Positions 44,032 to 54,292 of a DNA stretch of 64,000 nucleotides are shown here, piece by piece. The translations under genes and the position numbers were made by a program. Positions within the stretch are counted from its first letter, which is position 1, and every line of letters starts with the position of its first letter. The notes beneath the pieces were generated by a model, which was not told the origin of the DNA, made no database searches, and saw nothing but the letters and a program-made list of their open reading frames with translations. The stretch lies in NCBI RefSeq assembly GCF_002224365.1, contig NZ_CP022437.1:2790001-2854000 (forward strand), written 5' to 3'. Source of the DNA: Virgibacillus necropolis (GTDB lineage: Bacteria; Bacillota; Bacilli; Bacillales; Amphibacillaceae).

Positions 44032-45114
44032 TCAGGTTGCTTTTTGCTTCCTAACCGTATACTCAGCAAGACCTGGTATAGCCTTATTATCTATTGTTGC
44101 TATTACAGGCTTGTAAATAAGATTTATTGCAAAGGAAGTAATTAGACAAAGTGTAAAAAGCCATAAATAAATAAAAACTGGATACTTCGGTACAAAAATC
44201 AGTCCCGGAAAAAAGGATATGTAAAAAAACATATGTGTCAGCCAAATATTTGTGGAATGATTACCAAAAAAAGTAAAAACTTTTTGTATGAACTCCTTCT
44301 TGTCCATTAGGCAAAAGAGACAAATAAATAGAACTGCTGTAAATGGAGCGATTATCATAGATTCATAAAGTCCATGTATGATTACCAGCGTAATCATACC
44401 GATGCCACACCACGTATTTTTAAATCTTCTAGTGTTAACTTTGTTGTAGAGTTTTGAATAAATCTTTTCTTTTGCAAAAATGATGCCTATTACAAATGCA
44501 AGTTGTGATGTGCCAAATAAGACAATAGCGTTAACCAACATAATTAATATCGTGTTATCCCCTAGATCAATTACATGCTTTATTCTTTGTATATAGGTAA
44601 TCAAATAGATGAAGCCCGAAATTATTAATACAGCAATTGAGCGATTCCTCTTCACCCATTTAATAATAGGAGATGCTAATAAAACTAATATGACATACGT
44701 TTGCAAGTACCACCATGCTCCGTTATAAGAATTGGAGAGCAACGAAAAGTTAAGCAAAAATTCCTTAATTCCTCCTGGGAATGCTTCTGTATTTCCAGTT
44801 AAGAATGCAATACCAATAAACATTAAAAGAATGATCCAAAAGTTGATTAACAGTTTAAAAATTCTTTTGCCGTTCTTTCTTGAGCTGTTTCCTTTGGTTA
44901 GACTAAAAGAAAGACCATACCCACTTGCAAACAAATAGATAGGGACACAAGCATCTCCAAATAAACCGATATAATAAATAAGTGGTACTCCATTGATCAA
45001 AGGGAAGGTTTCGTATAATCCATTCACCTCTTTCCTTGCAAATAAATGAAGGGAAACCATAAATAAAATAGCTATCCCTTGAAGCATTTTCATGTCTCTT
45101 TTTGAGAATTCCAT
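44032..45114 (-). CDS. Acyltransferase family membrane protein (Acyl_transf_3)
   Basis: A 360-residue protein with about ten membrane helices, opening RDMKMLQGIAILFMVSLHLFAR with the family histidine in the first helix. Such proteins transfer acetyl or other acyl groups to sugars or peptides outside the cell. It starts 35 bases after the stop of the lasso exporter gene on the same strand, so it may belong to the lasso transcript as a tailoring enzyme, or it may be an unrelated cell-surface modifier. The sequence alone does not decide. Confidence 0.8.
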   Translation of the reverse strand: MEFSKRDMKMLQGIAILFMVSLHLFARKEVNGLYETFPLINGVPLIYYIGLFGDACVPIYLFASGYGLSFSLTKGNSSRKNGKRIFKLLINFWIILLMFIGIAFLTGNTEAFPGGIKEFLLNFSLLSNSYNGAWWYLQTYVILVLLASPIIKWVKRNRSIAVLIISGFIYLITYIQRIKHVIDLGDNTILIMLVNAIVLFGTSQLAFVIGIIFAKEKIYSKLYNKVNTRRFKNTWCGIGMITLVIIHGLYESMIIAPFTAVLFICLFCLMDKKEFIQKVFTFFGNHSTNIWLTHMFFYISFFPGLIFVPKYPVFIYLWLFTLCLITSFAINLIYKPVIATIDNKAIPGLAEYTVRKQKAT

Positions 45115-45149
45115 GGCTTTTCCCTTCTATCTTTCAATTGATTGCTTAT

Positions 45150-46943
45150 TTACTTAGCTTCCAACTGATTTTGCAATAAATGACTAAACATACTTTTCTT
45201 TTCTTCTGCTAGCTGAGTAAACCCACCCTTTTGAATTACTTCACCTTCGTCTAAAACAACAACTTGATCAGCATTACGAATCGTTGATAAGCGGTGGGCA
45301 ATAACAATAATCGTCATCTTGCCCTTTAGCCGTTCTAGTGCCTCTTGGATTTTCACTTCATTTTCCGTATCAAGTGCACTTGTCGCTTCGTCTAACACAA
45401 GGATCGATGGGTTCCGAAGAATAGCTCTCGCTAGGACAAGCCGTTGCCGTTCTCCCCCTGACAGTTTAATTCCACGATCACCAATTAAGGTATCAAGACC
45501 AGCAGATAGCTTACTTACAAATTCAGCCGCTGAAGAAAATTCTAGTGCTTCCCACATTTCTTCTTCGCTTGCATTTGGTTCAACCAACAGTAAGTTTTCT
45601 TTAATACTGGCATTAAACAGGAAAGGATCTTGTGGCACATAGCTAACCGCACGTCTTAAGGCTAAAAGACTTTCACTTGTCAAAGGTATTCCATCTATTA
45701 GGACTTGCCCCTTTTCTGGCTGATTTAAGCCCATTAATAAATCAATCAATGTACTTTTTCCAGCACCAGACCGTCCAACAAAAGCTGTCATTTGATTAGA
45801 TGGTATGATTAAATTTATATCTTGCAAAGCATAGTTCATTTCATTTTGATTATATCGGAAATAGACGTGATCACATTGAAGATTGTACTTTATGTGTAGA
45901 GGGGGAATTTTATTATCCATTCCCATTTCAAATTCTTGAGCATTCCTGCATTCATGTTGCAAAGCCTTTACTGCTTTAAAGGCTGGGATCGTTGTTGCTA
46001 TTTGTTCCATTGAAGATTGAATACCCGCAATTCTTGGCCAAAGCCTGGAAAAAATAATAATAACTAACATTAATTGACCTGCCTGTGCACTAAATATTGT
46101 AACGGCTACATAAATAAATGCTGCAATTAATACACTAGATGCGACTTTATAATATAATTGAGAAGTTGTTTTCAATTTCGTGTATTCGACTTGTTCATTT
46201 TGCATTCTATTTGTAATGGAACCAAACCAATCCATTCTAGAACTCTCTAACGTATTACTCTTTATATCTTTTATCCCGTTAACTTGATCCGTTATTCCAG
46301 CAAGGTAGTTCTTCCCTAATTCATAATTTCGTTTTCCAAGAGCCAGAGATCTTTTTAGAAATTTCCGATTTAAAAAGATAAGAACCAGACCACAGAGCAG
46401 TACAAAGATGGTTATATTTGGTGAGAGCCAGAAAGCTAGCCCTACCTGGATAAATGTAAACACAAGGGAAGAAACAAATTTTAAAAATGAATTCGTTCCT
46501 GCACTGGCACGAGCTAATTCTGCCGTTAATATGTTAATAAGATCAGATTTTCTTTGCTTTATGAAAAAGTCCCAATTTGAATAAAGTAATGATCCGTATG
46601 TTTCAATACGCATATGTCTTAAAAAGCCAAGCTGAATAACCGCATTTTTAACTGTTAACTGTCGATTCATTACATTTTGAGCAATCACAACAAAGACAAA
46701 TATCCCCAAAATCAACGGTAAACCCAATGAACTTGGAATATTATTTACGAATCCAAACATACTCATAAATGGTATCTCTTCAACACCCATATCGACAATC
46801 CCGCTCATACTAATTAAAGGAACTAATAATATGATTCCAATACCTTCAAGCAAACCAATAGCAGTCATTGCAACAAGATTTATATAAAGAATTTTTCCAG
46901 AATACGCGTGTATTTGTTTTAAAAAGTAAAAAACATGACCCAT
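45150..46943 (-). CDS. Lasso peptide ABC exporter (permease-ATPase fusion)
   Basis: A 597-residue half-transporter: six membrane helices in residues 1-320, then the ATPase domain with Walker A GRSGAGKSTLIDLL (about 390-404), the Q-loop in SYVPQDPFLFN, the signature LSGGERQR and LVLDEATSALD, then the H-loop IAHRLSTI. It would export the mature lasso peptide and provide self-protection, the role of the D protein in such clusters. It begins 12 bases after the nucleotidyltransferase gene. The final gene of the core cluster. Confidence 0.9.
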   Translation of the reverse strand: MGHVFYFLKQIHAYSGKILYINLVAMTAIGLLEGIGIILLVPLISMSGIVDMGVEEIPFMSMFGFVNNIPSSLGLPLILGIFVFVVIAQNVMNRQLTVKNAVIQLGFLRHMRIETYGSLLYSNWDFFIKQRKSDLINILTAELARASAGTNSFLKFVSSLVFTFIQVGLAFWLSPNITIFVLLCGLVLIFLNRKFLKRSLALGKRNYELGKNYLAGITDQVNGIKDIKSNTLESSRMDWFGSITNRMQNEQVEYTKLKTTSQLYYKVASSVLIAAFIYVAVTIFSAQAGQLMLVIIIFSRLWPRIAGIQSSMEQIATTIPAFKAVKALQHECRNAQEFEMGMDNKIPPLHIKYNLQCDHVYFRYNQNEMNYALQDINLIIPSNQMTAFVGRSGAGKSTLIDLLMGLNQPEKGQVLIDGIPLTSESLLALRRAVSYVPQDPFLFNASIKENLLLVEPNASEEEMWEALEFSSAAEFVSKLSAGLDTLIGDRGIKLSGGERQRLVLARAILRNPSILVLDEATSALDTENEVKIQEALERLKGKMTIIVIAHRLSTIRNADQVVVLDEGEVIQKGGFTQLAEEKKSMFSHLLQNQLEAK

Positions 46944-46955
46944 TCGTTTGTCCCC

Positions 46956-48146
46956 CTAAGGTAATGCATGCTTCCATATTTTTCTTGTTTTCCTCCAAGC
47001 CCATAATATCGGGCGCAACGGAAAATATAAAAAATGAAGTCGTTTTGGTAGTGGCAGCGTTTCTGCATCTTCAGGATATGGATACAGGAAGCTGATAATA
47101 AAAATAGTCTTTTGCTGAAAAGACATTAAAGAAAACAAATAACGTTTGTGATAGCGAGCAACTTCGTCAGGAACAGGGTCAGTATGTAAATTTATCATTG
47201 CCTCGAGGTAAAATATCGCTTCTTGAGCTAATTTTCTTGGACGTTTGCTTATAAATAATGATTTCATTTCATTTGTTAATTGTGCATTTAACAACTTTGA
47301 TGCCAAGATAATGCTCTGTCCACCTATACCAAGGAAATAGTTTGATTTTAATAATTCGTGAACCATTTCCCAGTTAATGTCTTGTTTCATAATGCGGTGA
47401 ATATCTACTACCCAACGTAGACGTGACCAACCATGACGAGAACCGTGTGATACAAGAAATAAAAACAAATCTTCTTTTCCTAATAAATAAACAGGAAAAC
47501 TTGTAAGTGTACTCTTATTTTTTCGTTTCCATAATTCGCAAAATCCTGGTTCTTTACTTGGACCAGGATTCAGCCGCCAATGGATTTCTAATTTAATATT
47601 TTTTACTGGGTGTATGTATGTAACATGATGATGTCTCCATTTCCAGTCATTCAACACTGTTTGTATATAATCATCTTTCTTATACCCATGACTAACAAGT
47701 AGTTGTTCTGCTTGATCAATTTTTTCTACGGGAATCAGCATATCTAAATCACTTGACGTGCGAAGTGAAACATCACCATATAGTTCATGGGCAAGCACTG
47801 GACCCTTTAAAAAAAGGAGACTTATTTGACTTTCTGCAAACCATTTACTTACACGTTCCATTTCCCCACTTAAATGTAGCATTTGAAATGTATTTTGCAT
47901 GTACTGCTGCTGCAGAAACTGTCTTACGTATGTTGGAACCAACTGCTCTTCAAGTAGCTTTATTTTATTATGGAGTAATGGATATACACGGTGATGCTTC
48001 GCTTGATTAATAAAGGCGTTCCAATCGATCTTGTTGCATAGTTCTACTTGATGTTCTTTGATGTATTGTTCATTTCCTTCTTTTAGTAACGCAAGAATTA
48101 GATTTACTTCCTTGGGAATACGCGCAAGATCAAGTGTGTTATCCAT
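46956..48146 (-). CDS. Nucleotidyltransferase family protein of lasso cluster
   Basis: A 396-residue soluble protein with the minimal nucleotidyltransferase signature TSSDLDMLIPV (metal-binding D133 and D135) after LLFLKGPVLAHELYG. Proteins of this family recur in Firmicutes lasso clusters of the paeninodin type. Their role is unproven; transfer of a nucleotide, or of a group onto the phosphorylated peptide C-terminus, has been imagined. ATG behind AGAAGGAG, 25 bases after B2. Tight spacing on both sides places it firmly inside the cluster transcript. Confidence 0.82.
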   Translation of the reverse strand: MDNTLDLARIPKEVNLILALLKEGNEQYIKEHQVELCNKIDWNAFINQAKHHRVYPLLHNKIKLLEEQLVPTYVRQFLQQQYMQNTFQMLHLSGEMERVSKWFAESQISLLFLKGPVLAHELYGDVSLRTSSDLDMLIPVEKIDQAEQLLVSHGYKKDDYIQTVLNDWKWRHHHVTYIHPVKNIKLEIHWRLNPGPSKEPGFCELWKRKNKSTLTSFPVYLLGKEDLFLFLVSHGSRHGWSRLRWVVDIHRIMKQDINWEMVHELLKSNYFLGIGGQSIILASKLLNAQLTNEMKSLFISKRPRKLAQEAIFYLEAMINLHTDPVPDEVARYHKRYLFSLMSFQQKTIFIISFLYPYPEDAETLPLPKRLHFLYFPLRPILWAWRKTRKIWKHALP

Positions 48147-48171
48147 AGTTTTCTCCTTCTAGATCTTTCAT

Positions 48172-48612
48172 TTATACTACCTTTGCAAATTTGGCAACAA
48201 CAGTGAATTTCTCCATTCCTTCTGAGCCAGAAACATAAAATGACCCACTCCTTAGCCAAGCGTGGGCAATTAACTCGCCATTTTTATCTTTGGCGGTGCC
48301 TAAATATAGTGTCGAATCAATATGACGACGTGCCAGCAATTTCTGACCAGCAATCGCTTTTACTAGACATTGGCTTTCCCAGAAAGTGTGTGGACTCATA
48401 ATTCTTATTGCTGCAGATACATCTTTTATTATTCCCAAGTACTTAGAATCTTCTGTGTATGCAGTTTCATCCATATTTTTACCCAAAGATGGAGCAATTT
48501 TGGCGAAAGGCAAGCCCTTGAGAAGGCGTGCCCATCCCAAACAAATAAAGGCCTCTAGCAATAACATTTTTGTTTTCCAATTCAATGAAAAAAAAGTCCT
48601 TATCTTTTTCAT
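48172..48612 (-). CDS. Lasso peptide leader protease B2 (transglutaminase-like)
   Basis: A 146-residue lasso maturation protease. The catalytic cysteine is C82 in WESQCLVKAIAG and the histidine H117 in AHAWLRSG; the third residue cannot be fixed, as no Asp stands at the expected place after the His. It would cut the leader after the conserved Thr-Met of both precursors, after recognition by the separate B1 protein. It is separated from B1 by the second precursor gene and a hairpin. SD AAAGGA lies rather far (11 bases) from the ATG. Confidence 0.92.
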   Translation of the reverse strand: MKKIRTFFSLNWKTKMLLLEAFICLGWARLLKGLPFAKIAPSLGKNMDETAYTEDSKYLGIIKDVSAAIRIMSPHTFWESQCLVKAIAGQKLLARRHIDSTLYLGTAKDKNGELIAHAWLRSGSFYVSGSEGMEKFTVVAKFAKVV

Positions 48613-48683
48613 AAGGTTCTCTAATCCTTTCTAACAAGTCTAGTATCCGTACATGTTTAATAACTCATTTTAAAGTTTGTTAA

Positions 48684-48718
48684 CCAACCTTTATACTATT
48701 TAAGAATATAGAGGTTGG
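48684..48718 (-). terminator. Hairpin after precursor A2
   Basis: On the minus strand CCAACCT pairs with AGGTTGG, and the stem is extended by TATA/TATA and AT-rich pairs around a TTAA loop. No strong T-tract follows. It sits 30 bases beyond the A2 stop and before B2, and may protect the short precursor RNA or cause partial termination. Confidence 0.6.
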
Positions 48719-48747
48719 CTATGTAAGGTTACTGATGAATGACTTAA

Positions 48748-48888
48748 TTAGCTATCTCCAACTCCACCATGGCCGTAATTATCATCCAACCAATCCTCAA
48801 ACCAATCAAACCAGTCTTCCCAGTCCCCGGTCATTGTTTTTCTAACATCTAATACTTCTAAAACAGGCTTACTCCATTTTCCTTTCAT
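48748..48888 (-). CDS. Lasso peptide precursor A2, Trp/Asp-rich core
   Basis: A 46-residue ORF, missed by length cut-offs, behind GGGAGGTG. The leader (1-19) is MKGKWSKPVLEVLDVRKTM, with the W/YxxP recognition motif and Thr at -2, virtually the same as A1. The 27-residue core begins T-G-D-W. Asp at core position 9 would allow the usual nine-residue ring. Trp stands at core 4, 7, 10 and 14, Phe at 8 and 11, and acidic residues at 3, 5, 6, 9, 12, 13, 16 and 17. The glycine-rich tail ends in Asp-Ser, so the terminal Ser could be phosphorylated by K. There are no Lys or Arg in the core. Lies between B1 and B2. Confidence 0.88.
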   Translation of the reverse strand: MKGKWSKPVLEVLDVRKTMTGDWEDWFDWFEDWLDDNYGHGGVGDS

Positions 48889-48948
48889 TTTTTCACCTCC
48901 CTTTAAGGAAAAAATTAAATTAGCACTTTGCTAGAATAAATACCAAGA

Positions 48949-49239
48949 TCAAGAGGCTGCCCCATCTTCTATCTTAATCAGCCTTTCGTCCAATAATAGA
49001 TTTAAGAAAGACAAGACTTGATCCCAGCATTCATCTTGTTTGACCTCATAATGCTTCATTAAAAAAGCTATTAAATCTTCTGTTGTAGTAGGGTCTTTAA
49101 TTTGTTCCCAAATCTCTCCCCCCATTTCCCCAAGGTTGTAATATTTTCCATTATGAATACTTAACATTACTTTTTCGCCATCCATATCACTTACGATGTT
49201 TCCTTGTTCTTGGCTAACAATACTTTGGTTTTTAATCAT
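48949..49239 (-). CDS. Lasso peptide B1, PqqD-like RRE protein
   Basis: A 96-residue PqqD-fold protein with the family beta-hairpin and helices (GEKVMLSIHNGKYYNLGEMG and GEIWEQI). As a RiPP recognition element it binds the leader peptides and presents them to protease B2. Its ATG overlaps the K stop (ATGA at 49236-49239), showing translational coupling. The precursor A2 gene follows 60 bases downstream, an unusual position for a precursor. Confidence 0.93.
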   Translation of the reverse strand: MIKNQSIVSQEQGNIVSDMDGEKVMLSIHNGKYYNLGEMGGEIWEQIKDPTTTEDLIAFLMKHYEVKQDECWDQVLSFLNLLLDERLIKIEDGAAS

Positions 49240-50171
49240 CTGACTTTCTCTCCTTTACCTATTTTAGTTAAAATTAAATTCACTAATTCATGAGCAGTGA
49301 AATGAGAAACAGGCCGTTTAATTTTGTATAGGTCAATTTTATTAACAATTTCTGCAGTCGTGCTAAAATGCCATTCCATTAATCCCGAACGGTTAATTAG
49401 AAAGTTACGGTATGTATGATTGAACAAGGTATGTAGTCGTTCAAGATTTTTAATAGGATAAATTTCAATCTCATAATCATTCGTTTTATTTAGTTCAAAC
49501 ACCCCAGCCAGAGGTACTGGTTCAGTTGCAAATTGCTCTGGAACCGGAACGGCGAACTTTGTTTCCCTGTCGATGATTGGCCTAAGGGGTTTTGAATCAA
49601 TACCAAATTTATCTAAGCTTTCTATCCAAAGTTTCTGCTGTGGATATGCAGGTGTCACAATTGGGATATTGTTTTCATTTACCGTAACTGGAATTACATC
49701 ATCACTTAGTAGTTGATACCCCCTGCTTAAAAATGCGGAAGCAAGCGTTGATTTGCCTGCACCAGAATCACCTACTACCGCATATGCTTTTCCATCTATT
49801 AGTAAAGCACTTCCGTGTAGTGGTAGTATTTGTCTTTGCATTAATAATGCACCCATGCAAGTACCAAGAATGTAGAGTCTAATTTGAGCCTCCTTTGAAC
49901 CATTTATAGGTGAAACAAAAACCTTATTCCCTTTTTGAATGAGGAAAATAGCTGTGTCTGGAACATGAAACAAAACGAAGTCCTTTTTGACAACAAGATA
50001 TTTGTTTTTTTCCGATAGTTTAGACCACATATTTAGTAAATCAGCGTAATGTATACCAATATCCGTCAATTCCTCATCCGTATTTAACTGAGGCAACTCT
50101 GGCAGAGGAAAGTCACTAGAAATACTCAAACCGAAAGCTTTGTAAACGTTTTTTTGGATAGTATCTATCAT
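49236..50171 (-). CDS. HPr-kinase-like lasso peptide kinase (PadeK type)
   Basis: A 311-residue HprK-like kinase with LPLHGSALL (H119), Walker A GDSGAGKST at 134-142 and the catalytic-base/metal region QLLSDDVIPV (157-162). In the paeninodin system the homologous kinase phosphorylates the C-terminal serine of the precursor. Both precursors here end in Ser (Tyr-Ser and Asp-Ser), consistent with that activity. ATG behind CGGAGGAG. A promoter-like site lies about 215 bases upstream, and the stop overlaps the B1 start. Confidence 0.9.
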   Translation of the reverse strand: MIDTIQKNVYKAFGLSISSDFPLPELPQLNTDEELTDIGIHYADLLNMWSKLSEKNKYLVVKKDFVLFHVPDTAIFLIQKGNKVFVSPINGSKEAQIRLYILGTCMGALLMQRQILPLHGSALLIDGKAYAVVGDSGAGKSTLASAFLSRGYQLLSDDVIPVTVNENNIPIVTPAYPQQKLWIESLDKFGIDSKPLRPIIDRETKFAVPVPEQFATEPVPLAGVFELNKTNDYEIEIYPIKNLERLHTLFNHTYRNFLINRSGLMEWHFSTTAEIVNKIDLYKIKRPVSHFTAHELVNLILTKIGKGEKVR

Positions 50172-50385
50172 CGAACTTCTCCTCCGTTTTTAAGAGTACA
50201 ATTTAAATTTGACATACCCTCATGGTTTTCTTCTTTTCATTAGGCACATCAAAACAATCGGTTTCCATTCAACCATCGTTCAATATAAAGAACGAAAACA
50301 AGAAAAAAAGACCTTCACACTGTTTTGAGAAGCATACTATTTTGCTAATTATTCTTATTTTGTTCTTTATAAAGTATTATAAGAT

Positions 50386-50415
50386 GAATTTATCATCTTT
50401 TACATGTAGTGTCAA
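50386..50415 (-). promoter_or_regulatory. Internal promoter between A1 and K
   Basis: On the minus strand TTGACA is followed, after 18 bases, by TAAATT with TGA directly before it (extended -10). It would drive K, B1, A2, B2 and the downstream genes separately from C-A1. The remaining bases 50172-50385 are AT-rich with no ORF that I can support. Confidence 0.6.
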
Positions 50416-50448
50416 TAATACTTTTACAATGTTTTGCTAATTATGTAT

Positions 50449-50476
50449 AGACCTGCATACCACGGTATGCAGGTCT
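50449..50476. terminator. Perfect hairpin after precursor A1
   Basis: AGACCTGCATACC and GGTATGCAGGTCT form a perfect 13-bp stem 20 bases after the A1 stop. The T run is on the plus-strand side, so minus-strand termination may be incomplete; the stem would at least stabilise the precursor message. Confidence 0.7.
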
Positions 50477-50495
50477 TGTTTTTCATAAGTATTTA

Positions 50496-50633
50496 TTAAC
50501 TGTAATGAACAACATCGTCTTCCATTGCGTCTGGATCAGGTTGAACCTCATCTGGGTAATGTAATCCTGGTCCCGCCATAGTCATATTAATATCAAGTAC
50601 TTCTAATAATGGCTTACTCCATGTCTTTTTCAT
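50496..50633 (-). CDS. Lasso peptide precursor A1 (paeninodin-like)
   Basis: A 45-residue ORF behind AAGGAGGTG, 12 bases after the C gene. Leader 1-19 is MKKTWSKPLLEVLDINMTM with the recognition motif WSKP and Thr at -2. The 26-residue core begins A-G-P-G-L, has Asp at core position 9 for a nine-residue macrolactam with Ala1, then a QPDPD segment, and ends V-H-Y-S. Paeninodin has the same AGPG start, Asp9, QPDPD and HYDS-type end, so this is a close relative. The C-terminal Ser is the likely phosphorylation site of K. Followed by a perfect hairpin. Confidence 0.93.
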   Translation of the reverse strand: MKKTWSKPLLEVLDINMTMAGPGLHYPDEVQPDPDAMEDDVVHYS

Positions 50634-50645
50634 GTTTTCACCTCC

Positions 50646-52580
50646 TTAAAAAGTTTTTTTAATAAATCGATACACAATTAAACTTCGCATTAGTAACTTG
50701 AATTCTGAATCAAGTATAAGTTCCGGCTTTGGATTTTCCTTTACTTTTGACATTGCAGATTTAATTATATTTAGATTAAGATATTCAGCCATTGCCGGGT
50801 CCGTGGTAATACTTTGGAATTCATTTATCAATTCGGACCACTGTGGAAGTAGTCTTTGGATACCATCCACTCCCTGTGCTCCTTTTACCAAGTGATTTAA
50901 CCTCACTTTATCAGGTAAGATATTTTTAGTTACCCTACGAATTAATGATCGATCCACGCCTTTTTGAATATACTGCGAATCCGGTACAGATAAACAAAAC
51001 TGGACAACCCGGAGGTCATTCGTTGGATCGCGATTCCAGATTGAGTTTCTTAAGGAAAACTTTGTATCAACTGTTCCATTACTCCGATAAAATAGTTTTT
51101 CAAACTGATTTTCTCTAGCCTCAAAGGTGCTTGGTAAGGTAGAACCTGTTTCATCTATACCAAAACTTTGTATCCTTTCAAATACGTTTTTTCTTTCAGC
51201 GAATGCTAGATTAATTAACATCGGTATGGAAGGTTCTGATCTAGAGCTGAATTTATTTTTTATCGATGGAAATGTTTTTTTTCCTATAACAGACAACACT
51301 CTTTTTCTTCCTGTCCCTTTAACATGAATAAATGCATTTATTTCTCTGTTTAGATTTATCCAACGAAGACTCCTGAATAGCTTCGTATAATAATCTAAAG
51401 CATTTCCCCACGAAATAGTATAATTACCCCGCGATCCATTTAAAAGCACCTTCACCCCCTGCTGGCTTGCTACCTCATATATTCCAGATATCCAATAGGA
51501 GTTTTCGAAAAATTTATATGGCATTTCAAGTACATCTAACCACTTATCCATTTCAGTTAAAGGGCTTTTATCTGGAAAACTTAGATAGTTTGGATTAATA
51601 TTTCCGACATGATTAACAGTTGATTTAATAAAAGGTCTCTCATCTGCTAATTTACTTTTTGGTGTCCAGTCTTCGAAACCATCCATCGGAACATAACTGA
51701 ACGTGTGCAATTGTTTTTTATCTTTTTCTAGTGCTTTAGCAGCAAAACCAACAACGGAACCAGAATCTAATCCTCCACTTAAGCGTGATCCTACCTTATG
51801 ATCAGTTCGCAAGTAATCATTGACCACATTTCCAAATAGTTCTTTAAAGGCTTCCTCGTACTCGGTATTTGACTTTAAATTTAATTTATACTTCGTAGTT
51901 AATGTACTGTATCTTGAAAGAGTAACATTACCTTTAATTACTGATATTGTATGTGACGGTGGAATTTGGTCAATCCCCTTATACACAGTTGCAAGTGGAT
52001 TCACAGTATCAAACATATCCGGAATAGCGAGAAAGTCTGCAAGCCACTCTTCGTTTAAACTTTTTTCCACATACGGTAAAGATAATAATGGTTGTATCAC
52101 CGTACAAAAGGCAAAACAATGATGGTTATTGTAAAAGTAAAGTGTTCTAGCGCCTGAAAAATCCCTAGCACCAAATAACTTTTGATTTTGCTCATCCCAA
52201 ATCATAAAAGCAAAGTCTCCTACCAAATGTTTTGCTACCTCATCTCCCCATCTGCAGTATGCTAATAAGATTAATTGACTATCTGGCATAATTTTTCTTT
52301 TATATTTCTTAACCTGCAAACTTTCAAATAACTCTTCACGATTGTCAATAATAGCATCGGCAGTAATCGATAACTGCCTCTCATAGTCATAATAAGGAAG
52401 TGGTTCTTCTACTGACTCTGGAGTAATCCATTGCGCTTGGCAACCAAGAAAGATATTCCTTTGTTGCCAAATTTGTATATCATCAGCAGGGAACCTCTGA
52501 AGAGTCTGCATCATGCCATTGCTTTGCTCGTTAGATATAGGTTCATTATTACTATTGTAAATCCCAGCTATAGCGCTCAT
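50646..52580 (-). CDS. Lasso peptide cyclase C (asparagine synthetase homolog)
   Basis: A 644-residue protein of the asparagine synthase B fold: N-terminal glutaminase-like domain (MSAIAGIYNSNNEP) and an ATP-pyrophosphatase domain with SRLSGGLDSGSVVG near residue 268. The N-terminal nucleophilic Cys of glutamine amidotransferases is replaced by Ser, so no glutamine hydrolysis is expected. The enzyme adenylates the ring Asp side chain and closes the macrolactam with the core N-terminus. The start at 52580 follows GGGGAGAG; the frame opens 21 bases earlier. It precedes the A1 precursor, unusual in that precursors commonly come first. Confidence 0.92.
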   Translation of the reverse strand: MSAIAGIYNSNNEPISNEQSNGMMQTLQRFPADDIQIWQQRNIFLGCQAQWITPESVEEPLPYYDYERQLSITADAIIDNREELFESLQVKKYKRKIMPDSQLILLAYCRWGDEVAKHLVGDFAFMIWDEQNQKLFGARDFSGARTLYFYNNHHCFAFCTVIQPLLSLPYVEKSLNEEWLADFLAIPDMFDTVNPLATVYKGIDQIPPSHTISVIKGNVTLSRYSTLTTKYKLNLKSNTEYEEAFKELFGNVVNDYLRTDHKVGSRLSGGLDSGSVVGFAAKALEKDKKQLHTFSYVPMDGFEDWTPKSKLADERPFIKSTVNHVGNINPNYLSFPDKSPLTEMDKWLDVLEMPYKFFENSYWISGIYEVASQQGVKVLLNGSRGNYTISWGNALDYYTKLFRSLRWINLNREINAFIHVKGTGRKRVLSVIGKKTFPSIKNKFSSRSEPSIPMLINLAFAERKNVFERIQSFGIDETGSTLPSTFEARENQFEKLFYRSNGTVDTKFSLRNSIWNRDPTNDLRVVQFCLSVPDSQYIQKGVDRSLIRRVTKNILPDKVRLNHLVKGAQGVDGIQRLLPQWSELINEFQSITTDPAMAEYLNLNIIKSAMSKVKENPKPELILDSEFKLLMRSLIVYRFIKKTF

Positions 52581-52687
52581 AATTTTCTCTCCCCACATCA
52601 CACAATTAATAATTCAAACACTTAATAACGAACGTAATTTGCATAGAATCGGATCTCTCATCATTCATTGTAATAAATAAACCTGGA

Positions 52688-52855
52688 TGAATGCAGTATT
52701 GAATATACCAGTTTAGTTCTATATAAAGAACGTTACCACACAAGTTTACTTTATACAAGTGAAATTTCGGCAAATTCAGAAACTGGTGAATTGATTGAAC
52801 CAGGGCATGTAGCTTATGGTCAGCTATTTCATAAGTCCTTATAAATATTACAAAC
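52688..52855 (+). pseudogene. Start-less ORF remnant
   Basis: An open frame of about 55 codons without a start codon or RBS, reading DECSIEYTSLVLYKERYHTS and later GELIEPGHVAYGQLF before a stop at about 52855. It looks like the 3' remnant of an unidentified gene, left between the lasso cluster and the decayed glycosyltransferase. It could also be chance. Confidence 0.3.
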
Positions 52856-52859
52856 TACG

Positions 52860-53194
52860 ATGCCCGCGAGACTATTCATTGCTTCACTGTATAAAGTTTC
52901 TATACATTTCACAAGAATCCAATCATCAGCATCAACAAACATTACATAACCATATCTAGATGTTTAGCCCCCGCTCTTCTAGTGGCAATGCTTCCCTCAT
53001 TATCCTAATCTCTCACAATTATCCTATTGTCTATTTTTTTGTATTTTTCACATATTGCTAAACTGTTTTCAATCAAACCATCATTAATCAAAAATAATTG
53101 AATTATTTGAATAATTGTCTAATAATTGATTTAATGCACTTTTCAAGTTTTCTTCCAGATTATATATAAGGACTCCGATACTAATTTCGTTCAT
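52860..53194 (-). pseudogene. Decayed GT2 glycosyltransferase fragment
   Basis: Starting at an ATG (53194), the minus strand reads MNEISIGVLIYNLEENLKSA, then after frameshifts DGLIENSLAICEKYKKIDNRI, DNEGSIATRRAG and MFVDADDWI in different frames, with internal stops. These segments line up in order with the start of the GT2 gene immediately upstream (53234-54292: LVNDGSTDNSLKICEKYRKTDNRI, NEGTVVTRRKG, MFVDSDDWID). It is a degenerate duplicate truncated after the nucleotide-binding region. The 3' two thirds are missing. Confidence 0.85.
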
Positions 53195-53233: not shown

Positions 53234-54292
53234 TTATACAACAGCCAATTTTGATGCAATTTTCATTAGTGCATGTTTGTATTTTTTCTTCTTATAAATA
53301 TTCTCTCCTATATTAAAAAGATAGTTTACATCTTTATTTCTAATAGCATTTAAAAACGAATCTGAAAAAAACTTTATTGATCCTCGATTATCTATTGCCT
53401 CTAGGATATAATCATTTGATACGTATTCAAATATTTGTTGTTTTATTTCCAATTCAGTTAGGTTACCAAGAAATAAATCGTATAAGCATCTTTTAAACAT
53501 GTTAAGCAACATAATACTTGGTCCATTGTAATTACTTTGTTTTGTATTTTGATAATGTTCATCTATAACTTTCTTTTGTATTTTAAAACCTTCTATTACA
53601 TCTTTAAATAAATCGGGCATATATCGAGATGTAAAGCCACCTAATCGATAGTAATATAAACTTTCATCTACAACTTTAAGTCTGTCTGCTTTCATTAACA
53701 TTTCCAAATTATAAAACAGATCTTCCCCAAAAAATTTAATTTTATCAATATATTTACCACTGCTCATTAATAACTCTCTTTTGTATAACTTTGCACATAG
53801 TGAAGCTGGAAACGGGTGACCATGGAAGTAGGCTATAGCTAATTCATCTTTTATTTCCTCTTTATTGAAAACCCTATCTTCCTTAAAATAAATACTATTA
53901 TTTTTTTGTTTAATTAACCCATTTCCAAACGTTCTAAGGGTGTTACATACAATAATCTCAAGCGAATCTTTAATAGCACCTTTGTAAAGAATTTCTATCG
54001 TCTTTTTATCTATCCAGTCATCAGAATCAACAAACATGATATAGTCTGAACTTGATGCATCAAGTCCTTTCCTTCTAGTAACTACAGTACCTTCATTCTT
54101 CTTATCAATTATCAAAATTCTATTATCCGTTTTTCGGTATTTCTCACATATTTTTAAACTGTTATCTGTTGAACCATCATTTACTAATATTAACTCAAAA
54201 TCTGTAAAAGTCTGTTTAAGAACAGACTTAATACATTTTTCAAGGTTTTTTCCTGGATTATATATAGGAATTATTACACTTACTTTACTCAT
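53234..54292 (-). CDS. Glycosyltransferase family 2
   Basis: A 352-residue inverting glycosyltransferase, opening VSVIIPIYNPGKNLEKCIKSVL, with the nucleotide-sugar binding FELILVNDGSTDNS and the metal-binding MFVDSDDWID, then the acceptor region HPFPASLCAKLYKRELL. It adds one sugar to a lipid-linked glycan at the cytoplasmic membrane face. Start ATG with a weak RBS. A decayed copy of its 5' end lies directly downstream. Part of the polysaccharide cluster; donor sugar unknown. Confidence 0.9.
   Translation of the reverse strand: MSKVSVIIPIYNPGKNLEKCIKSVLKQTFTDFELILVNDGSTDNSLKICEKYRKTDNRILIIDKKNEGTVVTRRKGLDASSSDYIMFVDSDDWIDKKTIEILYKGAIKDSLEIIVCNTLRTFGNGLIKQKNNSIYFKEDRVFNKEEIKDELAIAYFHGHPFPASLCAKLYKRELLMSSGKYIDKIKFFGEDLFYNLEMLMKADRLKVVDESLYYYRLGGFTSRYMPDLFKDVIEGFKIQKKVIDEHYQNTKQSNYNGPSIMLLNMFKRCLYDLFLGNLTELEIKQQIFEYVSNDYILEAIDNRGSIKFFSDSFLNAIRNKDVNYLFNIGENIYKKKKYKHALMKIASKLAVV

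Follow-up and report, generated by a model that had tools for sequence, protein, structure and literature searches.

The window analysed here, a 64,000-nt stretch of the Virgibacillus necropolis genome (GCF_002224365.1, NZ_CP022437.1 positions 2,790,001-2,854,000, forward strand), carries on its minus strand a complete paeninodin-type lasso operon with the gene order C - A1 - K - B1 - A2 - B2 - Nt - ABC - acyltransferase (Table 1). Residues 4-92 of the B1 protein match the paeninodin RRE (9x90_B). Glycosyltransferase genes lie upstream of the operon. On visual inspection two short open reading frames (52829-53194, minus strand) look like fragments of the family 2 glycosyltransferase at 53234-54292 and are perhaps a decayed copy of it; Pfam gave nothing for them at E 0.001. 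Rfam gave no match within 48500-50700. Our subject is A2, the small gene between B1 and B2.

Table 1. Features of the A2 operon (positions within the window).
Feature	Position	Strand	Basis
A2 precursor gene (leader, core, stop), 46 aa and stop	48748..48888	-	NF033524; orthologue in sister species
A2 leader, 19 aa, WxxPxL motif, Thr at -2	48832..48888	-	Sequence; motif as in PMC13381572 (source available in part); predicted cut site
A2 core, 27 aa, Trp/acidic, C-terminal Ser	48751..48831	-	Sequence; compared with 234 other distinct cores
A2 ribosome-binding site	48894..48901	-	Sequence (GGGAGGTG)
Hairpin directly downstream of A2	48682..48720	-	z -2.65 in the window, -2.49 in L062 (sister species, same place)
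C, lasso cyclase	50646..52601	-	Best model NF033535, 399 bits, below cut-off 525; PF00733, 80.7 bits
A1, ordinary paeninodin-type lasso precursor, directly downstream of C	50496..50633	-	NF033524, 60.8 bits
K, HPr-kinase-like putative C-terminal Ser kinase	49236..50171	-	PF07475, 28.2 bits, below cut-off 33.3; place and kind as PadeK/PsmK (PMC9266682, available in part)
B1, PqqD-like RRE	48949..49239	-	NF033536, 133.5 bits; PDB chain 9x90_B, E 2.5e-30
B2, leader peptidase	48172..48612	-	NF033537, 104.4 bits; PF13471, 67.6 bits
Nt, NTP_transf_5 protein (PsmN-like)	46956..48146	-	PF14907, 190 bits
ABC exporter	45150..46943	-	PF00005 and PF00664
Acyl_transf_3 membrane protein, in sister species too	44032..45114	-	PF01757

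The ATG of A2 is preceded at 5 bases by a good ribosome-binding site, and the encoded peptide passes NF033524, the NCBIfam model of the paeninodin family (39.5 bits, cut-off 27). Judged by its sequence, it carries the marks of that family, namely a WxxPx[L/V] leader, Thr at -2 and a C-terminal Ser as putative kinase site; cleavage after Thr(-2)-Met(-1) was placed by the rules of the family. In the core, Trp occupies positions 4, 7, 10 and 14, Phe positions 8 and 11, and Tyr position 19. There are 9 Asp or Glu residues, Asp at residue 3 among them, and no Lys or Arg; the tail is Gly-His-Gly-Gly, and the C-terminal Ser27 is the sole Ser of the core. A preliminary description of this DNA had counted four Trp, two Phe, about nine acids and no Lys or Arg, and our recount agrees. 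It had also stated that no similar characterised lasso peptide was known, and our searches likewise met no characterised peptide closely homologous to A2.

Two genomes of the genus were compared, that of the window and that of a sister species (G530, locus L062). The latter has a syntenic A2 orthologue between B1 and B2, identical to A2 at 27 of 48 aligned positions (BLASTP), with 5 Trp, a Gly-Asp-Ser end and an NF033524 score of 27.8 bits (cut-off 27). A tandem-repeat pattern of D-W-x triplets, with an acid at 3, 6 and 9, fits both orthologues as judged by eye. The coding sequences differ by dN 0.285 and dS 1.005, giving a dN/dS of about 0.28, a rough figure for so short a sequence. Given the NF033524 score, the syntenic orthologue with this dN/dS and the hairpin in both species, A2 is, on sequence grounds, a real gene and not a chance open reading frame. 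As to its location, among 194 loci with consecutive B1 and B2, which contain duplicates of the same species, the median gap between the two matches is 37 nt, and only L062 and L063, the two focal genomes, exceed 300 nt; the gap of 212 nt at L225 had no precursor found inside.

Between the two species the A2 cores are identical at 12 of 24 aligned positions, with gaps in addition, as against 24 of 26 for A1; what has been kept therefore appears to be the overall make-up of the core and less so a fixed ring. When the two A2 orthologues are aligned at their best, the ring is displaced by 3 residues. A third orthologue was not found in searches of genome contigs, viral contigs, plasmids and phages: the alignment scan with A2 and its orthologue returned 150 stretches from genome contigs and 77 from viral contigs, none of them confirmed, and plasmids and phages gave no match at E 0.01; the window's own or near genomes were possibly omitted from these scans. 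Similarly, a B1 scan of genome contigs (best 80 of 208 loci) yielded new cyclase-adjacent cores with at most 3 Trp each, and no additional precursor of the A2 kind.

For comparison, precursors were gathered from 162 selected loci and from 80 named loci (the best 80 of 208 by the B1 scan), many of them from the same species. Inclusion depended on the leader pattern, the ribosome-binding-site pattern, a correctly placed Thr and a core above a minimum length, and rows failing these were dropped, such that the leader motif is common to all precursors by way of selection. After removal of repeats, and with the two focal cores set aside, there remained 202 distinct cores whose gene immediately follows that of a cyclase, and 32 for which this is not so; a false match at L299 was excluded, and the lasso-looking core of L135 is counted within the 32. 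Because related species are over-represented, the counts that follow describe the two groups and do not test them.

Against this background the composition of A2 is as extreme as the preliminary description had held. The 4 Trp of A2 and the 5 of its orthologue compare with a maximum of 3 in either group, and residues 1-9 contain 3 and 4 aromatics, respectively (maximum 2 in the 202, 3 in the 32). The acid fraction of A2 (0.333) is high, but not unique, being reached by 5 of the 202 cyclase-adjacent and 2 of the 32 other cores. Thr1, described earlier as uncommon, occurs in 1 of the 202, and a Thr-Gly start likewise in a single cyclase-adjacent core. Cores free of Lys and Arg number 33 of the 202 as against 1 of the 32, and here A2 resembles the cyclase-adjacent group more.

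The two groups follow different rules. Precursors outside the cyclase-adjacent group were met in many genomes. Every one of the 202 cyclase-adjacent cores carries Asp or Glu at 8-10, whereas only 11 of the 32 others do (Fisher p ~3e-22, relatedness ignored), a share that composition alone would yield: among the first 30 non-adjacent cores such an acid was observed in 9, while 15.3 would be expected from composition. In contrast, a C-terminal Ser is present in 201 of the 202 and in 30 of the 32. Since 21 of the 32 have no acid at 8-10 and yet 30 end in Ser, the kinase rule is kept in this group and the cyclase rule is not. Lys1 is found in 25 of the 32 and in none of the 202, and an aromatic residue at core position 2 is likewise absent from the 202; A2 has Gly2, its orthologue Trp2. 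At the ring position A2 has D9 and the orthologue E9, which is weak evidence because the two cores hold 23-33% acids. A position-class score for residues 1-10, which in a leave-one-out control placed 194 of the 202 and 30 of the 32 in their own group, puts A2 on the lasso side (+6.14) and the orthologue on the other (-2.75). Separately, 17 cores out of the first 151 beside a cyclase (L117, L120, L148, L167, and L170 among them) have an acid at 10 and none at 8-9, so that the ring would span ten residues or cleavage would fall one residue further on.

Among 44 successive pairs of dissimilar cores (identity <=0.42), the second core is immediately preceded by a cyclase gene in 32. In the remaining 12 it is not: two are the focal pairs, and in ten the second core has no lasso-like start; these ten second cores begin with Lys1 in 7 cases and with N-N, T-H and F-R in the rest, and have an acid at 8-10 in 3. 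Seven further tandem pairs, with a cyclase within 900 nt that was read as common to both precursors, show 62% identity or more. Going by its first residues, A2 is thus the sole lasso-like core without its own cyclase in the dissimilar pairs surveyed, as against 32 of 32 with one, and it departs from the rule for such cores in not being encoded directly after a cyclase. The sister species has two cyclases, each with a precursor of its own directly after it, and the A2 orthologue adjoins neither of them. At L171 and L188 a second cassette, precursor-K-B1-ABC, lies beside the lasso cluster, and the cores of its precursors lack an acid at 8-10.

Two clusters, L081 (G448) and L097 (G524), have the order A-K-B1-B2-Nt-ABC and no C. 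No recognisable lasso cyclase was found in either whole genome, the best matches to the C protein of the window being 26-28% identical, although in G524, with an assembly of about 220 contigs, there is room for a missing cyclase piece. For comparison, the second match within the window genome is 28% identical, and identities of 49-82% were obtained for the full-length cyclases in G530, G312, and G331, a partial G312 match (41% over 242 residues) being kept out of this range. Cyclase model scores reach at most 225 bits in G448 and G524, whereas the best of each of five other genomes scores 316-361; B2 is present in both G448 and G524. Among the named loci, L249, L296, and L302 have a B1 relative and no C match within the stretch; L249 has K, B1, B2, ABC, a Lys1 precursor and a GNAT gene.

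GNAT genes recur near precursors that do not follow a cyclase. The first 32 of these (the two focal precursors and 30 more) lie in 30 loci, and 21 of the loci encode a protein of one GNAT family (L082, L084, L085, L094, L104, L127, L168, L172, L178, L181, L184, L199, L202, L211, L213, L116, L147, L173, L194, L209, and L219). Three members were scanned; all showed a weak likeness to Acetyltransf_5 (Pfam), two also to FeeM, and one was over the Acetyltransf_5 cut-off. The adjacent precursors have a paeninodin leader, mostly a Lys1 core, and a C-terminal Ser, and possibly yield N-acylated linear phosphopeptides. In 12 of the surveyed loci, genes for Wzz, BY-kinase-like and Polysacc_synt_2 proteins come next, and several genomes have the precursor at a distance of about 22-33 kb from a lasso-type cluster. 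L127 (G002) has a Lys1/GNAT precursor in a genome in which the B2 model found nothing (1 of 13 genomes). Orphan Trp-rich precursors with an NGG start, three Trp and the same kind of leader occur at L128, L129, L131, L132, and L144, where matches to C, K, B1, and B2 were absent from the locus stretches around them.

The A2 core also has the periodicity of an amphipathic helix. Its highest-moment 14-residue stretch has a helical hydrophobic moment of 0.90, which none of 3000 shuffles reached; the orthologue has 0.66, reached by 3.2% of shuffles in one run and 5.3% in another. The maximum in the 202 cyclase-adjacent cores is 0.55, and two of the 32 others have 0.68 and 0.78. As a control for the shuffling, p<=0.01 was obtained in 3 and p<=0.05 in 12 of 149 cyclase-adjacent cores. 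AlphaFold predicts a helix at residues 23-38 of A2, that is, core residues 4-19 (block pLDDT 84 and 78; two sequences, mean pLDDT 72.8), whereas for A1 it predicts only a four-residue helix in the core (one sequence, mean pLDDT 70.1). The leader is helical in both models as well, which is uninformative on the bound state. These helix tests were picked after the sequence had been seen.

The gene, leader, operon, orthologue and helical periodicity are all features of the sequence itself. As to the product, we put roughly even confidence in a linear, Ser27-phosphorylated, amphipathic peptide and narrowly favour this over a lasso. We propose that A2 would be a genuine second substrate of the lasso operon. 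B1 would bind its WxxPxL leader, K would phosphorylate Ser27, Nt may add hexose, B2 would free the core by cutting behind Thr(-2)-Met(-1), and export would fall to the ABC protein. C, dedicated to A1, would close no ring on A2, as the comparative counts suggest, and the product would for that reason be linear and phosphorylated. Residues of about 4-19 would form an amphipathic helix with the aromatics on one face and the acids on the other. We infer binding, phosphorylation and leader removal on good grounds by analogy with PadeK/PsmK, from the fit of WxxP leader and RRE, and from the role of Thr(-2) in relatives. In the available portions of PMC9266682, the C-terminal Ser is a PadeK target while the peptide is still a precursor but no longer in the mature lasso. 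PsmK attaches a single phosphate or several, and hexosylation of this Ser requires PsmN, with the question of whether PsmN is itself the glycosyltransferase left open in those portions. The excerpted text of PMC13381572 reports that the paeninodin RRE pocket accommodates a WxxP leader, and that of PMC10368454 that Thr(-2) serves as a recognition element in processing. Our guess, given the adjoining glycosyltransferase genes, is a role at the surface or membrane.

The linear reading draws on the cyclase pairing, the cyclase-less clusters, the non-adjacent precursors without a ring acid, the helix and the divergence of the core, on a comparison base of two A2 orthologues and surveyed relatives that are not independent of each other. 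Counting against it are D9/E9, the positive residue 1-10 score of A2, the lack of Lys and Arg, the absence of Lys1 and GNAT, a cyclase in the same operon, and the acid at 8-10 in three of the ten non-focal second cores that lack a cyclase. Several of these points speak for a true lasso, in which C would join Thr1 to Asp9 and the Trp-rich tail would thread the ring with its indoles as plugs, a reading to which we attach a substantial but lesser probability. It would be served by an intact leader and Thr(-2), by C lying within reach in the same operon, by a ring acid in both orthologues, by a permitted Thr-Gly start and by the lasso-side score, but it has to contend with the missing cyclase gene where all 32 second lasso-like cores in dissimilar pairs have one, with the Trp2 and crowded aromatic ring segment of the orthologue, neither of which has a counterpart among the 202, and with the displaced ring in the orthologue alignment. 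For the same reasons, namely the orthologue's negative score, its Trp2 and the want of an own cyclase gene, the name 'lasso precursor' given in the preliminary description holds in the sense of a paeninodin-family precursor within a lasso operon, whereas a lasso product is doubtful; the part of that description most likely to be correct is its hedge that A2 may form a different topology.

Two other readings seem improbable to us. A2 may be a bait or regulator that, bound and phosphorylated in the manner of A1, modulates the lasso pathway and gives no exported product; its A1-like kind of leader and C-terminal Ser, its place between B1 and B2 and the fast divergence of its core would fit, yet a ribosome-binding site of its own, a downstream hairpin conserved between the two species, the low dN/dS and the retained unusual composition argue for a product. 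A shade less probable still is a derived GNAT-coupled Lys1-type precursor that no longer has Lys1 or the acyltransferase and has relocated to the operon. That group has the same leader and includes Trp-rich amphipathic cores (L147 and L104), and GNAT was found in two of three other family genomes searched (G448 and G312) and, at E 0.001, in neither genome of the genus; however, A2 has neither Lys1 nor GNAT, no sequence intermediate links the two, and the core likeness to L147 is short and was judged by eye.

There is also a broader proposal, to which we give slightly less than even credence: that the lasso machinery (B1, B2, kinase, transferase, and exporter) also works without ring closure, turning precursors that have a lasso leader and a kinase site, and neither a ring acid nor a dedicated cyclase, into linear C-terminally phosphorylated peptides, of which A2 would be the Trp-rich amphipathic form, and that some clusters have lost the cyclase altogether. 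Should A2 not be a lasso, one operon would make two topologies from one kind of leader, with selectivity set by core and cyclase, and the cyclase-less clusters in two genomes would let one ask what lasso maturation enzymes do without a knot. If, on the other hand, A2 is a lasso, its core is the most Trp-rich of its kind in the compared set and would probe the limits of bulk that a lasso ring accepts.

Among known systems, aromatic-rich actinobacterial lasso peptides such as RES-701 also have several Trp, Phe or Tyr residues in the core; the RES-701 core is not known to be strongly acidic and its cluster differs from that of A2. At 16 aa it is also shorter (PMC7280977, as far as the available text goes). 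Within the titles and abstract openings of the literature searched, we met no Trp-rich acidic paeninodin core and no cyclase-less WxxP cluster, which leaves their absence from print unproven. A2 resembles the paeninodin-type lasso peptides (NF033524; paeninodin and pseudomycoidin) in its WxxPxL leader, Thr(-2) and C-terminal Ser, and its operon has the same components (C, K, B1, B2, Nt, and ABC) as those described in the accessible part of PMC9266682. Unlike them, A2 has 4 Trp in a core that does not resemble the AGPG, NGPG or LG types, lacks its own cyclase gene and lies between B1 and B2. The Lys1-type WxxP precursors beside GNAT in other genomes share with A2 the leader, the C-terminal Ser, the lack of an adjoining cyclase and, at times (L147 and L104), a Trp-rich amphipathic core, but A2 starts with Thr1 and has no adjacent GNAT gene.

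The LPP are linear phosphopeptides made with an RRE, an HPrK-like kinase, an NTP transferase and an exporter, often near lasso clusters and polysaccharide genes; their leaders have YxxP and are served by an SpI-like peptidase, and the phosphorylated residue of the one studied is Ser3 (PMC13381572, Nat Commun 2026, from the portions available). As a candidate member of this class A2 was rejected because three LPP features fail: its leader has WxxP and not YxxP, its peptidase is B2, with no SpI-like leader peptidase among the nine proteins of 44032-52601 in a Pfam scan, and it has Asp3 in place of Ser3, its only Ser being the C-terminal one. Nevertheless, on the portions of that source available, the published linear polyphosphorylated peptides are the closest precedent for a linear A2. 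Both the paeninodin precursor family and linear phosphopeptides near lasso clusters are already known, and A2 is an unusual variant.
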